Under the pieces are notes generated by a model. It saw only the letters and a list, made by a program, of their open reading frames with translations, searched no databases and had not been told where the DNA came from. 20,800 bases of DNA from a virus, in the IMG/VR virus record IMGVR_UViG_3300031643_000021, positions 1 to 20,800 of that record. One strand, 5' to 3'. The translations under genes and the position numbers were made by a program. Positions 13,153 to 15,731 of this stretch are shown here, piece after piece. The stretch's first letter is position 1. Each line of letters begins with the position of its first letter.

Positions 13153-13239
13153 TGGTGGCAACGGGTGGATTTGAACCACCGAAGTCAGAGACGCCAGATT
13201 TACAGTCTGGTGGCATTAATCAGACTCGCCCACGCTGCC
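13153..13239 (-). tRNA. tRNA-Tyr (GUA)
   Basis: Acceptor GGCAGCG pairs with CGTTGCC; A73 and CCA are encoded. The anticodon arm is CCAGA-CTGTAAA-TCTGG, giving GUA. The variable arm is long, as expected for bacterial tRNA-Tyr, and the T loop is TTCAAAT. It is the last RNA gene of the array in transcription order. Confidence 0.92.
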
Positions 13240-13244
13240 CTTTC

Positions 13245-13469
13245 TTATTTGGCTTCCGACCCACACTTGCGGCATTTGTTGGTCTTTGGGTCTATGATGC
13301 CGCCGCACTTACAGAAGCTGCACGGAGTCACTTGCCTGGGCTGCTTATTGTCGCCCCAGGTGAACTTCGGATCCAGATCGGAGGCATACTCGGCTGGTTC
13401 CTGGCCTTCTGGTACGATCTGCTTCACTCCGGTTTCTGTGACTCTCGTACGATTCGGATTAATATTCAT
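13245..13469 (-). CDS. Small zinc-ribbon protein between tRNA genes
   Basis: A 74-residue protein. The C-terminal part has C50-SF-C53-K-C55 and C66-RK-C69, so a zinc ribbon is likely. The N-terminal 45 residues are polar without a recognised motif. I choose the ATG at 13469; GAAGGG lies about 8 bases upstream, while the longer frame runs back through a tRNA gene. The TAA stop ends 5 bases before the 5' end of tRNA-Tyr, so this mRNA would be trimmed by RNase P right after its stop. The function is unknown; the context suggests a role with RNA or in the translation takeover, which is inference. Confidence 0.7.
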   Translation of the reverse strand: MNINPNRTRVTETGVKQIVPEGQEPAEYASDLDPKFTWGDNKQPRQVTPCSFCKCGGIIDPKTNKCRKCGSEAK

Positions 13470-13489
13470 GATAAGCCCTTCTGATAAAC

Positions 13490-13549
13490 TGGTTGGCCCG
13501 GTGGGGCTCGAACCCACGCGGTTGCTTCGCCTGTCTAAGCTACGGGCCG
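13490..13549 (-). tRNA. tRNA gene lacking the anticodon arm
   Basis: On the minus strand the D arm (GCTT-AGACAGGCG-AAGC), the T arm (GTGGG-TTCGAGC-CCCAC), the acceptor (GGCCCG/CGGGCC) and an encoded A73-CCA are intact. Between the D arm and the T stem only AACCGC remains, where about 22 bases including the 17-base anticodon arm should be. The gene is 60 bases long with CCA, against about 76. The terminal pair would be C1-A72. It cannot decode; it may be a pseudogene from a clean deletion or a deliberate tRNA mimic. Confidence 0.75.
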
Positions 13550-13557
13550 TGTGAAAA

Positions 13558-13632
13558 TGGGGTGAGGCGGAAAATTGCACTCCGGCTTCACGGGCCACAA
13601 CCGTGCGTTCTGCTGACTAAACTAGCCTCACC
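13558..13632 (-). tRNA. tRNA-His (GUG)
   Basis: Anticodon arm CACGG-TTGTGGC-CCGTG gives GUG. Acceptor GTGAGGC pairs fully with GCCTCAC; the discriminator is C73 and a G precedes position 1, which matches the histidine G-1:C73 identity pair. CCA is encoded. The T loop reads TGCAATT, with G in place of the usual T55. Confidence 0.88.
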
Positions 13633-13638
13633 ACATTT

Positions 13639-13713
13639 TGGTGGACCCGCTCGGGGTTGAACCGAGGCCTAACTGCGTGCAAAACAGTCGCTCTCCCATT
13701 AAGCTACGAGCCC
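13639..13713 (-). tRNA. tRNA-Ala (UGC)
   Basis: Anticodon arm ACTGT-TTTGCAC-GCAGT gives UGC. Acceptor GGGCTCG/CGGGTCC includes the G3-U70 wobble, the main alanine identity element, and A73. CCA is encoded. Confidence 0.92.
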
Positions 13714-13718
13714 TTGCT

Positions 13719-13793
13719 TGGTTGTGCCGGATGGACTCGAACCGTCAGTCTTCCGGATATCAGCCGGATGCCTTACCGTTGACCTACCCGGCT
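13719..13793 (-). tRNA. tRNA-Ile (GAU), irregular acceptor
   Basis: Anticodon arm TCCGG-CTGATAT-CCGGA gives GAU, and the T loop is TTCGAGT. Measured back from the encoded CCA, the 3' acceptor strand is CGGCACA, which does not pair with the 5' strand in the normal register. GCCGGGT/ATCCGGC would pair but would break the T stem. The anticodon and T arms closely match the neighbouring tRNA-Asn. Confidence 0.7.
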
Positions 13794-13797
13794 GTTT

Positions 13798-13873
13798 TGG
13801 CTCCTGGAGAAGGATTCGAACCTTCAGCCTTCCGGTTAACAGCCGGATGCTCCACCGGTTGAGCTATCCAGGA
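13798..13873 (-). tRNA. tRNA-Asn (GUU)
   Basis: Acceptor TCCTGGA/TCCAGGA pairs fully, with G73 and CCA encoded. Anticodon arm TCCGG-CTGTTAA-CCGGA gives GUU; T arm GAAGG-TTCGAAT-CCTTC. Its 5' end directly follows the stop codon of the ParB-like gene. Confidence 0.94.
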
Positions 13874-14245
13874 TCATAGACTGTACTGCACAGCCCATAT
13901 GTGACTATGCCCTGTTATCAAAGTAGTATACAGCCTGTGAGCTCCATTGTGAACTTGATACGGTGGCCCTCCAGGCGCAATCTGAATTGGCCTAATTGGG
14001 ACTCCTGAAGCAATGCGGCGAAGCCACTTTATCGTACGCTCTTTCTTCAGTAAGGGAACTCCAACGGCCCTCTGCACAGGCTTTATGTCTTCTATGGCTA
14101 TTTTCATGGACTGGCGGTGCTCTGAGTCCTTTGTTGGAGCGTCTTCCGGTGCACGGAAGCCAGAAGCGCCCGCTTCTGCAATCCAAGCAAAGGGAATCGA
14201 AAACTCCATGCCGTTGTGAACTCCATGCTTAACAAACTTGCTCAT
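13874..14245 (-). CDS. ParB-like domain protein
   Basis: A 123-residue protein. Residues about 50-120 look like a ParB/sulfiredoxin-like domain: 'IKPVQRAVGVPLLKKERTIK', 'RPIQIAP', then VHNGAHRLYTTLITGHSHI, which carries the G-x-H-R signature of that fold. Stand-alone ParB-like domains in phages can be nucleases, NTP-using enzymes or DNA-binding proteins; there is no HTH here, so partitioning is unlikely. AGAGGAA lies 5 bases before the ATG. The TGA stop directly abuts the first base of tRNA-Asn. Being inside a tRNA array suggests a role linked to RNA or translation takeover, but that is inference. Confidence 0.78.
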   Translation of the reverse strand: MSKFVKHGVHNGMEFSIPFAWIAEAGASGFRAPEDAPTKDSEHRQSMKIAIEDIKPVQRAVGVPLLKKERTIKWLRRIASGVPIRPIQIAPGGPPYQVHNGAHRLYTTLITGHSHIWAVQYSL

Positions 14246-14261
14246 CAGTTCCTCTGAGATA

Positions 14262-14336
14262 TGGAACGGGTCCAGGGAATCGAACCCTGCCCTCTTGGTT
14301 GGAAGCCAAGTATGCCGCCGACAACACCTTACCCGC
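14262..14336 (-). tRNA. tRNA-Gly (UCC)
   Basis: Anticodon arm CTTGG-CTTCCAA-CCAAG gives UCC; T arm CAGGG-TTCGATT-CCCTG. The acceptor GCGGGTA/GACCCGT has six pairs (one wobble) and an A7-G66 mismatch. Discriminator is U73, as in bacterial tRNA-Gly, and CCA is encoded. The D arm is irregular. Confidence 0.85.
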
Positions 14337-14343
14337 TCGCATT

Positions 14344-14420
14344 TGGTACTCCTGCACGGACTCGAACCGCGAGATTTCTGCTTCTAAGGCAGCTGCCTAT
14401 TCCAATTCGGCTACAGGGGC
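14344..14420 (-). tRNA. tRNA with leucine anticodon UAG on a short-variable-loop body
   Basis: Anticodon arm GCTGC-CTTAGAA-GCAGA gives UAG. Acceptor GCCCCTG/CAGGAGT has one mismatch (C3-A70), with A73 and CCA. The variable loop is only 5 bases (AATCT), while bacterial tRNA-Leu normally has a long variable arm. The 5' part GCCCCTGTAGC resembles tRNA-Arg bodies. The true amino acid is therefore uncertain. Confidence 0.75.
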
Positions 14421-14558
14421 TTACTTTGACCTGCCGCTACCTCCACCGACACCTCCGCCACGTCCGTATCCGGGTCCGCCTTTGCTGCACGGACCGGTGT
14501 TCTTATTACGCCTGAGAGGTCTTTTTCTGGGCGGTCTGCGTTGATTAAGCTGAGCCAT
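14421..14558 (-). CDS. 45-residue Arg/Gly-rich peptide
   Basis: A 45-residue frame on the minus strand. The N-terminal half is very basic (MAQLNQRRPPRKRPLRRNKN) and the C-terminal half is glycine-rich with RG repeats (GPGYGRGGGVGGGSGR). AAAGGA lies about 10 bases before the ATG. The TAA stop ends directly at the first base of the next tRNA, the same layout as the ParB-like gene, which supports translation. Basic and RGG-type segments commonly bind RNA, so an RNA-binding role near the tRNA array is plausible but inferred. No homologue is recognised. Confidence 0.62.
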   Translation of the reverse strand: MAQLNQRRPPRKRPLRRNKNTGPCSKGGPGYGRGGGVGGGSGRSK

Positions 14559-14579
14559 GACTTGTAATTCCTTTCAAAA

Positions 14580-14665
14580 TGGTGCCGAGAGAGGGAATCG
14601 AACCCTCACGCCCGAAGGCACCGGATTTTGAGTCCGGCGTGTCTACCAATTCCATCCATCTCGGC
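14580..14665 (-). tRNA. tRNA-Leu (CAA)
   Basis: A proper class II tRNA: acceptor GCCGAGA/TCTCGGC, A73 and CCA, anticodon arm CCGGA-CTCAAAA-TCCGG giving CAA, and a long variable arm (TGCCTTCGGGCG). This is the only tRNA in the array that has both a leucine anticodon and a leucine-type body. Confidence 0.94.
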
Positions 14666-14669
14666 ATTT

Positions 14670-14746
14670 TGGTGGGGCCGACAGGATTCGAACCTGCACT
14701 GAACCGAGCTTAAATCGGATGCCTCTACCAATTGGGCTACGACCCT
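14670..14746 (-). tRNA. tRNA with leucine anticodon UAA on a short-variable-loop body
   Basis: The anticodon arm CCGA-TTTAAGC-TCGG gives UAA, which reads UUA. The variable loop is 5 bases (TCAGT), not the long arm of bacterial tRNA-Leu. Acceptor AGGGTCG/CGGCCCC has an A1-C72 mismatch; A73 and CCA are present. The T arm is GCAGG-TTCGAAT-CCTGT. Identity is uncertain. Confidence 0.75.
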
Positions 14747-14749
14747 CTG

Positions 14750-14826
14750 TGGGGTCCAGGACCGGATTCGAACCGGCGATCATCAGATTGAAGGTCTGAG
14801 GGCTTGGACCGCTCGCCTACCGGGAC
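14750..14826 (-). tRNA. tRNA-Glu (UUC) with C33
   Basis: Anticodon arm TCAGA-CCTTCAA-TCTGA gives UUC, but position 33 is C instead of the near-universal U. Acceptor GTCCCGG/CCTGGAC has one mismatch (C5-U68), with C73 and encoded CCA. T arm GCCGG-TTCGAAT-CCGGT is regular. Confidence 0.8.
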
Positions 14827-14831
14827 AAAGT

Positions 14832-14906
14832 TGGATGACCGGACAGGACTCGCACCTGCTAAGCCGGGGTTGCGGCCCGGCGCCTCGACTCTTTAGCTTC
14901 CGGTCA
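14832..14906 (-). tRNA. tRNA-Cys (GCA) with C33 and G55
   Basis: Acceptor TGACCGG/CCGGTCA pairs fully with U73, the cysteine identity base, and CCA. The anticodon arm CCGGG-CCGCAAC-CCCGG gives GCA, with C at 33. Position 8 is A and the T loop is TGCGAGT with G at 55. The stop codon of the upstream membrane-peptide gene lies inside its D arm. Confidence 0.82.
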
Positions 14907-15015
14907 GACCCTGCACTAACAAGCGAAAAAGAATCCCAGCAACAAAGGCCACTATAATAACTACAAAAAGGCACATAGACAGAAACCAACCAGGGACTTC
15001 CTTTTCCTTAACCAT
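14893..15015 (-). CDS. 40-residue single-pass membrane peptide
   Basis: The frame starts at the ATG at 15015 with GAGGTG six bases upstream. It has a short charged N-terminus (MVKEKEVPGW), one hydrophobic segment (LSMCLFVVIIVAFVAGILF, residues about 12-31) and a short tail (RLLVQGLTGS). The longer frame upstream runs back into tRNA-Met and is unlikely. The gene overlaps tRNA-Cys by 14 bases, so its last codons and TAA stop lie inside the tRNA. It could be a small lysis or membrane-modifying peptide; this is a guess from topology. Confidence 0.62.
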   Translation of the reverse strand: MVKEKEVPGWFLSMCLFVVIIVAFVAGILFRLLVQGLTGS

Positions 15016-15032
15016 GTTCACCTCAAAGGAGT

Positions 15033-15105
15033 TGGTTGCGGGGACCGGAATCGAACCGGCGTAGTCGGGCTTATGAGGCCTGATGGGATACCAATCCACC
15101 CCGCG
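15033..15105 (-). tRNA. tRNA-Met (CAU), initiator-like
   Basis: The loop CTCATAA gives CAU. The ends CGCGGGG and CCCCGCA-A-CCA are the same as those of the E. coli initiator tRNA, including the unpaired C1-A72 that defines bacterial initiators. The anticodon stem keeps two of the three G-C pairs (29:41 and 30:40), but 31:39 is C-G and 28:42 is mismatched. The D arm is short (GGAT-TGGT-ATCC). Confidence 0.85.
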
Positions 15106-15117
15106 CTCTCTCTGTTT

Positions 15118-15194
15118 TGGAACCGACAGTAGGCCTCGAACCTACAACCCGCTGATTACAGATCAGCCGCTCTACCCACTTGAGCTATGTCGGC
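15118..15194 (-). tRNA. tRNA-Thr (UGU) with C33
   Basis: Acceptor GCCGACA/TGTCGGT, U73 and CCA encoded. The anticodon arm GCTGA-TCTGTAA-TCAGC gives UGU, with C at position 33. T arm GTAGG-TTCGAGG-CCTAC is regular. The frame of the upstream protein gene ends at 15185, inside this tRNA. Confidence 0.82.
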
Positions 15195-15586
15195 ATGTTT
15201 TTGGTGGAGGCGGTCGGAATTGCACCGACGTCCGGGTCCTGCCCGCTTGGGCCTTTAGGGGCCCGTCGACCTAATTCGCCCCCCTTGTTTGTTTCAATGA
15301 GGTCCAAAACCGTACGCGATACCTCGCCAATCATATCGTGGAACTGGTCGTGAGTGAAAACGAAGAGAAGCTCGCCTTTCCAGTTCTTGTATCTATAGCC
15401 GAAGTTCGCCAGTGATGCCTCTATTGCCTCATGGAGATAGTCCTGAACTACCTCAAAGCTCGTCTTGGCATCCTTTGAAACGACAAGCTCCGAGTCGCCA
15501 AGGCTAAAGTGGCTCGAATTACATTTCTCCCGGCGCACCTTCAGCAAGTAACCAAGCGTACAGAATACTTTGGGCAGCTTAAGCAT
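15185..15586 (-). CDS. Protein of unknown function whose frame runs through the tRNA-like RNA
   Basis: Start is the ATG at 15586, with AAGGGG about 5 bases upstream. The frame gives 133 residues. The first about 100 look like a real protein (for example VVQDYLHEAIEASLANFGYR and LFVFTHDQFHDMIGEVSRTV) with a mixed helix/strand pattern and no known motif. The last about 32 residues are the translation of the tRNA-like RNA and end within tRNA-Thr (15185), so this tail may not be a selected protein sequence. If the RNA is cut out of the transcript, the mRNA would have no stop codon. The frame overlaps the next gene upstream by 8 bases. Confidence 0.65.
   Translation of the reverse strand: MLKLPKVFCTLGYLLKVRREKCNSSHFSLGDSELVVSKDAKTSFEVVQDYLHEAIEASLANFGYRYKNWKGELLFVFTHDQFHDMIGEVSRTVLDLIETNKGGELGRRAPKGPSGQDPDVGAIPTASTKNMPT
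15202..15283 (-). ncRNA. tRNA-like RNA resembling the tRNA domain of tmRNA
   Basis: An 82-base RNA. The acceptor GGGGGCG/CGCCTCC pairs with a G3-U70 wobble, followed by A73 and CCA: the alanine-charging signature of tRNA-Ala and tmRNA. The T arm GTCGG-TGCAATT-CCGAC is perfect. The 5' end continues AATTAGGTCGACGGG, close to the tmRNA 5' consensus (GG-TTCGACGGG), and as in tmRNA no D stem forms. The centre folds as GGGCC-CCTAAA-GGCCC (6-base loop, no normal anticodon) plus CGGG-CAGGA-CCCG. It could be a minimal tmRNA-like alanine acceptor or a degenerate class II tRNA. No tag reading frame is seen. Confidence 0.6.
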
Positions 15587-15731
15587 GTTTCCCCTTCCCT
15601 GCATTCGCATACAGCGCAGCCTTCATCCGCTGGCAAGCTGCGAGTGTTTTCTCTTTCGATTGCGAGCTGTTCCTGACCCACTTTCCGTCTTTCTTCACTT
15701 CGAGTACGTGACCGTTACATCGCCAGGGCAT
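15579..15731 (-). CDS. Small basic protein
   Basis: A 50-residue protein starting at the ATG at 15731 with GGGAGGT five bases upstream. It has VLEVKKDGKWVRNSSQSKEK followed by 'ALYANAG'. A pattern of 'kKdGk...SkekA...A.yA' is common in small phage proteins of unknown role. It is basic with two cysteines (C6 and C34). It overlaps the next gene by 8 bases and follows the previous gene by 1 base, so it is in an operon. Confidence 0.7.
   Translation of the reverse strand: MPWRCNGHVLEVKKDGKWVRNSSQSKEKTLAACQRMKAALYANAGKGKHA

Follow-up and report, generated by a model that had tools for sequence, protein, structure and literature searches.

A compact RNA at the head of a phage tRNA array

What is a phage RNA of 82 nt that has the acceptor of an alanine-accepting RNA and neither an anticodon arm nor a tag reading frame, and what could it do during infection? 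The question arises from a virus record of 20,800 bases (the window, meaning the whole stretch of DNA analysed), which encodes P22-type coat and portal proteins and a terminase, indicating a P22-like tailed phage. The RNA, hereafter the mini-tmRNA (GGGGGCGAATTAGGTCGACGGGCCCCTAAAGGCCCAAGCGGGCAGGACCCGGACGTCGGTGCAATTCCGACCGCCTCCACCA), lies on the minus strand at 15283-15202, with its 5' end at 15283. It is the first RNA of a tRNA array that follows directly downstream (13153-15194, minus strand) and contains 12 tRNAs called by ARAGORN plus one found by Rfam only. ARAGORN called no RNA of any kind at 15202-15283. The original prediction had proposed a tRNA-domain-only relative of tmRNA at 15202-15283, and these coordinates held exactly, on the minus strand.

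The mini-tmRNA resembles tmRNA at both ends (all positions on the minus strand). Its 7-bp acceptor stem is formed by the 5' strand GGGGGCG, which contains G3 (15277-15283) and pairs at 7/7 positions with 15206-15212; the 3' strand CGCCTCC, providing U70 of the G3-U70 pair, is followed by A73 and an encoded CCA (15202-15212 in total). A TCGAC segment (15265-15269), in the context GG-TCGAC-GGG, occupies the D-loop-like region that takes the place of the D arm in tmRNA. A GAC linker (15230-15232), corresponding to the "GGAC" of tmRNA, precedes a perfect T arm, GTCGG-TGCAATT-CCGAC (15213-15229), with 5/5 pairs and G for U at position 55. No D stem forms in this sequence, and no anticodon arm with a 7-base loop was found. 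A tag reading frame, a resume codon and a pseudoknot region are likewise missing, the mRNA-like domain being absent from the alignment with the Rfam tmRNA model RF00023. Thus, the predicted G3-U70 pair, A73, encoded CCA, tmRNA-like 5' segment, lack of a D stem and perfect T arm all held.

The middle of the molecule is a connector (15233-15265) that substitutes for the mRNA-like domain and pseudoknots. The minimum-energy fold places a hairpin with a 6-base loop here, as had been predicted, and that claim holds only for this fold. Comparison with relatives, including a syntenic one (L307, below), makes it very likely that the connector instead comprises a P2 helix, CGGG/CCCG (15262-15265 with 15233-15236), a CC/A internal loop between P2 and a CCU/AGG helix (15257-15259 with 15238-15240), a purine bulge, AAAG (15253-15256), and a hairpin, GCCC-AAGC-GGGC (15241-15252).

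We also inspected the surroundings of the mini-tmRNA. Immediately upstream there is a weak promoter-like site (15358-15330, 9/12 match), and a better one is located at 17056-17028 (11/12 match). No tyrosine integrase was found in the window. An upstream ORF (15185-15610, minus strand) is open across the entire mini-tmRNA without a stop, so that RNA processing would leave a non-stop mRNA; the stop codon of its L307 counterpart falls within the mini-tmRNA. A programmed non-stop mRNA was rejected as a general explanation, as the upstream frame was open for ≥60 codons in 13/110 mini-tmRNAs versus 11/141 tRNAs, showing no family-wide enrichment.

Within the array, two other RNAs were unusual. A second odd tRNA-like RNA (13490-13547, minus strand; GGCCCGTAGCTTAGACAGGCGAAGCAACCGCGTGGGTTCGAGCCCCACCGGGCCAACCA) has an acceptor, a D-arm-like stem, a T arm and ACCA, lacks an anticodon arm, and was called by neither ARAGORN nor Rfam. 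A tRNA read by eye as Cys (anticodon GCA; 14835-14906, minus strand), scored by Rfam at 37.7 bits and missed by ARAGORN, has the T loop TGCGAGT, with G at position 55 as in the mini-tmRNA.

The mini-tmRNA matches the tmRNA covariance model

RF00023 matched the mini-tmRNA end to end (45.4 bits, E = 2.7e-15, model positions 1-374). This score falls slightly below the gathering score of 47, as would be expected for an RNA that lacks most of the modelled positions. A narrow search aligned the model from the acceptor and UCGACGGG through CCCGGACG, the T arm and CCA, with a 25-nt insert bridging 316 model positions of the mRNA-like domain. None of the window's tRNAs matched the tmRNA model in a search of the whole record. 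The model also matched in each of 14 control genomes, among them those of archaea. E-values alone therefore cannot be trusted, and the gap in bit scores is the better control: when the same model was run on 30 other phage records carrying mini-tmRNAs, ordinary tRNAs scored at most 29.9 bits and mini-tmRNAs 35.7-75.9, with 28 of the 30 records exceeding the cut-off of 47. The permuted tmRNA model, RF04321, matched only weakly (25.8-27.3 bits). A permuted two-piece tmRNA, in which the 3' half precedes the 5' half in the gene, was rejected: here the 5' acceptor strand comes first, immediately upstream, in normal gene order.

A good class II tRNA fit would have refuted the original prediction. None was found: Rfam scored the mini-tmRNA as tmRNA over tRNA, ARAGORN found no tRNA, and the family-wide absence of an anticodon arm refutes a class II or degenerate tRNA. 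The claim of a tRNA-domain-only tmRNA relative was upheld, both by the model match and by segments in the relatives that are found only in tmRNA. We conclude that the window RNA is almost certainly a tmRNA consisting of the tRNA-like domain (TLD) only, with the mRNA-like domain deleted.

Selection on the mini-tmRNA in its own lineage

We then compared the window with related phages. One relative, L003, was 99.6% identical and, because of this near-identity, gave little information on selection. A second, L307, encodes a related terminase (79% identity), and its neighbouring DNA is ~69% identical, in an alignment that begins exactly at 15283. It carries a mini-tmRNA in the same place (GGGGGTGAATAGGTCGACGAGCCTCCTTCAAGGCTCAAGCGAGCAAGGACTCGGACCCGAGTGCAATTCTCGGCACCTCCACCA; 45.0 bits with RF00023). 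Between the two, seven helix pairs have changed on both sides and all remain paired in the helices as drawn: four of these lie in the five-pair T stem, and the acceptor, P2 and the inner hairpin each contribute one. These two-sided changes fix the middle structure given above, and together with synteny they show that selection acts on the mini-tmRNA in this lineage. The L307 tRNA array also contains a weak tRNA-Sec-like match (1693-1783; 35.8 bits, cut-off 47).

A widespread viral family with invariant alanine identity

A strict pattern search recovered an 81-nt mini-tmRNA scoring 67 bits in an unrelated phage (L001/L002). To count the family, we used only patterns that ended at the T arm and required neither an acceptor nor CCA, and then kept matches with ≥6/7 acceptor pairs. 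Scans of viral contigs with these acceptor-free patterns yielded 238 mini-tmRNAs, representing 164 distinct sequences and 55 clusters (80% identity). The patterns demanded CGAC, GGAC and the T arm, so conservation of these elements is partly query-selected, whereas that of the acceptor, position 73 and P2 is not. UCGAC was invariant in the alignment of relatives, though the scans had selected for CGAC, and GGAC was mostly conserved.

G1-C72, G2-C71, G3-U70 and A73 were present in 164/164 distinct sequences, while acceptor pairs 4-69, 5-68 and 6-67 varied with compensation; CCA was encoded in only 60/164. The original prediction would have failed had relatives not conserved the acceptor and the TCGAC segment; it survived, with G3-U70 and A73 invariant without any acceptor in the query and the TCGAC segment also conserved. 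This invariance suggests that the family is under strong selection for chargeability with alanine, charging itself being inferred.

P2 covaried strongly across the family. Pairs 2-6 of this helix were paired in 88.7% of cases, compared with 45.1% (sd 2.8, maximum 55.6) when partners were swapped among clusters. For 32 sequences counted separately, 96.5% of cells were paired versus 66.8% when shuffled and 45-53% with slid partners; the covariation score was 0.752 versus 0.152, and both sides changed in 13/19 pairs. A MAFFT alignment without padding put the acceptor stem in the wrong place; lengths in the 32-sequence alignment were hence equalised with N before pairs were counted, and the P2 register is assumed rather than inferred. 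The inner hairpin, which follows a purine-rich stretch, scored 8.8, compared with 7.0 (sd 0.47) when the middles were shuffled. A shorter form of the family has a plain hairpin in place of the purine stretch and hairpin.

Some loci departed from this layout. Five related loci (L005, L011, L024, L041 and L056) contain TGACGACAGG...GGAC, a T arm and CACCTCCACCA, with no matching 5' acceptor strand nearby. Another record (L033, 14052 bases) apparently holds a pair of distinct mini-tmRNAs; the T stem of one of them is bulged, as is also seen in L410, L464 and L467.

Carriers of the mini-tmRNA

Cultured carriers include the Streptomyces phages LuckySocke, Alone3, GiJojo, pSt2308 and BRock and the Stenotrophomonas virus Jojan60, with GiJojo and Alone3 assigned by BLAST match. 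In the isolate phage annotations that we inspected, no feature labels the mini-tmRNA as tmRNA. In Streptomyces phage Tomas, a more degenerate mini-tmRNA without TCGAC was read by eye. Synechococcus phage S-H34, Marzo, Xanthomonas phage X1, PaMx31 and Cellulophaga phage phi40:1 were checked and no mini-tmRNA was found. When individual 80-nt sequences were compared with phage records by BLAST, most matches were to tRNAs or to the 3' half of a full tmRNA. Many mini-tmRNAs lie near tRNA genes, but at several loci tRNAs are entirely absent.

A pattern scan of 84,980 bacterial and archaeal genomes, in which output rows were limited, gave one clear mini-tmRNA among at least 119 matches; this sole copy was on a low-coverage cyanobacterial contig that may itself be viral. 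Within the limit of that scan, the mini-tmRNA is likely a phage RNA. One 123.6-kb record (L081, IMGVR_UViG_3300025362_000004) encodes both a mini-tmRNA (46486-46567) and a 392-nt full tmRNA (77588-77979), and the two have very similar T arms.

We searched 30 carrier records for partner genes. None (0/30) encoded SmpB, so host SmpB must be used. An RF-1 domain of the ArfB type was found in 1/30, as a partial match, and a tyrosine integrase in only 3/30, more than 10 kb from the mini-tmRNA. Separately, in Tunturiibacter phage Tunturi_4 (L304, 1118-1532), a gene for an RF-1-domain (ArfB-like) release factor adjoins the 3' end of an unannotated tmRNA.

Proposed function and alternative explanations

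The homology of the mini-tmRNA to tmRNA, its structure, the selection on it, its conserved alanine identity, its spread among phages and its lack of a tag frame are shown; that it is expressed, charged, bound by SmpB and admitted to the ribosome, and that the phage benefits, is inferred. Previous work provides a basis for this inference. With SmpB, the TLD mimics a whole tRNA, its D arm contacts SmpB, and G3-U70 directs alanyl-tRNA synthetase (AlaRS) (PMC3985003). A TLD-only RNA like that of mycobacteriophage DS6A has been reported to inhibit tmRNA strongly in E. coli whether or not it can be charged, perhaps by titrating SmpB (PMC4131195, PMC11915505). From this inhibition and the perfectly conserved alanine determinants, we infer a host-charged, SmpB-bound competitor that would enter stalled ribosomes without templating a tag. 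This is the best explanation available, and we consider it as likely to be wrong as right.

According to this competitor model, host tRNA-processing enzymes would excise the mini-tmRNA from the array transcript, host AlaRS would charge it with alanine, and host SmpB and EF-Tu would bind the charged form, which would then replace host tmRNA at ribosomes stalled on truncated mRNA. Having no tag reading frame, the mini-tmRNA would be unable to template a degradation tag, and would thereby compete with and damp host trans-translation during infection. Nascent phage proteins and cut phage mRNAs may thus be spared from tagging and decay. The original prediction had offered ribosome rescue, competition with host tmRNA or peptide tagging as functions. 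Peptide tagging by the mini-tmRNA alone is excluded by the absence of a reading frame and resume codon; competition is favoured, and rescue without a tag remains possible, both by inference.

Tagless rescue is the main rival, since charging appears to be selected; we rate it well below an even chance. Here, alanyl-mini-tmRNA with SmpB would enter a stalled ribosome and take the nascent chain, and the ribosome would be freed untagged, either by drop-off and peptidyl-tRNA hydrolysis or by a release factor. Such an activity would suit phages exposed to toxins that cut mRNA or to heavy turnover of mRNA. In its favour, a nascent-chain acceptor requires alanine identity, which is invariant (164/164), and mitochondrial tmRNAs without a tag or pseudoknots have been kept together with SmpB (PMC11915505, PMC3985003), suggesting that a tagless RNA may also perform useful rescue (PMC11915505). 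Against it, no RF-1/ArfB-type gene accompanies the mini-tmRNA beyond the single partial match, to our knowledge no step frees a ribosome holding peptidyl-TLD without a template, and the TLD-only RNA that was tested was inhibitory (PMC4131195).

A pure sponge, titrating SmpB (or AlaRS/EF-Tu) and never acting on the ribosome, is unlikely. Inhibition by an unchargeable TLD-only RNA, perhaps through SmpB titration, supports it (PMC4131195). However, a sponge needs no charging, yet G1-C72, G2-C71, G3-U70 and A73 are kept in every distinct sequence while other acceptor pairs vary; perfect alanine identity exceeds what plain SmpB titration would need. It is very unlikely that a non-ribosomal or phage enzyme takes alanine from the mini-tmRNA, or that the Ala-RNA has another use outside trans-translation: AlaRS identity is retained without codon reading, but such a role would not need the conserved SmpB-contact segment TCGAC or a tmRNA-type P2.

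Two further explanations are all but excluded. Cluster K mycobacteriophages hold a tmRNA 3' half at attP beside the integrase (PMC10865867), but an attachment-site remnant or host ssrA pseudogene left by a temperate phage is refuted here by compensatory changes between two halves that are both present and co-evolving, and by integrases that are rare among carriers and distant. A degenerate ordinary tRNA-Ala would account for G3-U70, A73 and the location in a tRNA array, but not for the missing D stem and 7-base anticodon loop, the Rfam preference for tmRNA, or the tmRNA-only TCGAC and GGAC segments of relatives.

Overall, the mini-tmRNA probably interferes with, or bypasses, host ribosome-rescue tagging, the mechanism being inferred. 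A bolder reading, which we offer only tentatively and would not yet back, is that tagless tmRNA is a widespread, selected phage tool that would be charged with alanine and seize host SmpB-dependent rescue without tagging. As part of the same joint claim, held with equal reserve, it would counter host quality control or mRNA-cutting defences, and the purine-bulge hairpin would have a ribosomal role of its own. The spread of the family and the selection on it make one clear question testable, namely whether phages cause host ribosome rescue to proceed without tagging. Tests do not require the uncultured phage, as Streptomyces phages that carry the mini-tmRNA are in culture (BRock, LuckySocke, Alone3 and pSt2308).

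Comparison with known systems

A phage TLD-only tmRNA was already known from one phage, DS6A, listed as "TLD only" (PMC4131195), and the window RNA is almost certainly an additional one. In a 2025 survey, just nine tmRNA genes in total were listed as "standard, no CDS" (PMC11915505). In the literature searched, which excluded subscription literature, we found no description of the family's frequency, its conserved connector or its invariant alanine identity over 55 clusters. In the present scans, TLD-only tmRNA is common in viral contigs, overlooked by ARAGORN and mostly unannotated.

The mini-tmRNA shares with standard one-piece tmRNA (ssrA, RF00023) the G3-U70/A73 acceptor, the TCGAC D-like segment, P2, the GGAC linker and the T arm; it differs in being about 80 instead of about 360 nt long and in lacking the tag frame, resume codon and pseudoknots. 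The tmRNAs of Mosig, Melnitz, Gordonia phage Forza and Stenotrophomonas phage Marzo are also phage-encoded, several of them in tRNA arrays, but their genes, full-size or permuted, include an mRNA-like part. Jakobid and oomycete mitochondrial tmRNAs and the roughly 65-bp plastid tmRNA of Mallomonadaceae also have no tag frame (PMC3985003, PMC11915505), but they are organellar, and the mitochondrial genes are usually permuted. The Thermus thermophilus TLD fragment crystallised with SmpB (PDB 2CZJ; PMC3985003), in which 25 5' residues and 34 3' residues are connected by a short joining loop, has the same design, but is engineered and lacks the 3' CCA. The one published phage precedent is the DS6A TLD-only tmRNA (Mao et al. 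2009, cited in PMC4131195 and PMC11915505), by its description likewise phage-encoded, with little beyond the tRNA-like domain and no tag frame. The window RNA has this layout, with both halves of the tRNA-like domain, 5' and 3', contiguous in one short RNA. Whereas DS6A is a single reported phage case, the present family comprises 55 clusters, in which P2 covaries and a purine bulge with a hairpin is often present.
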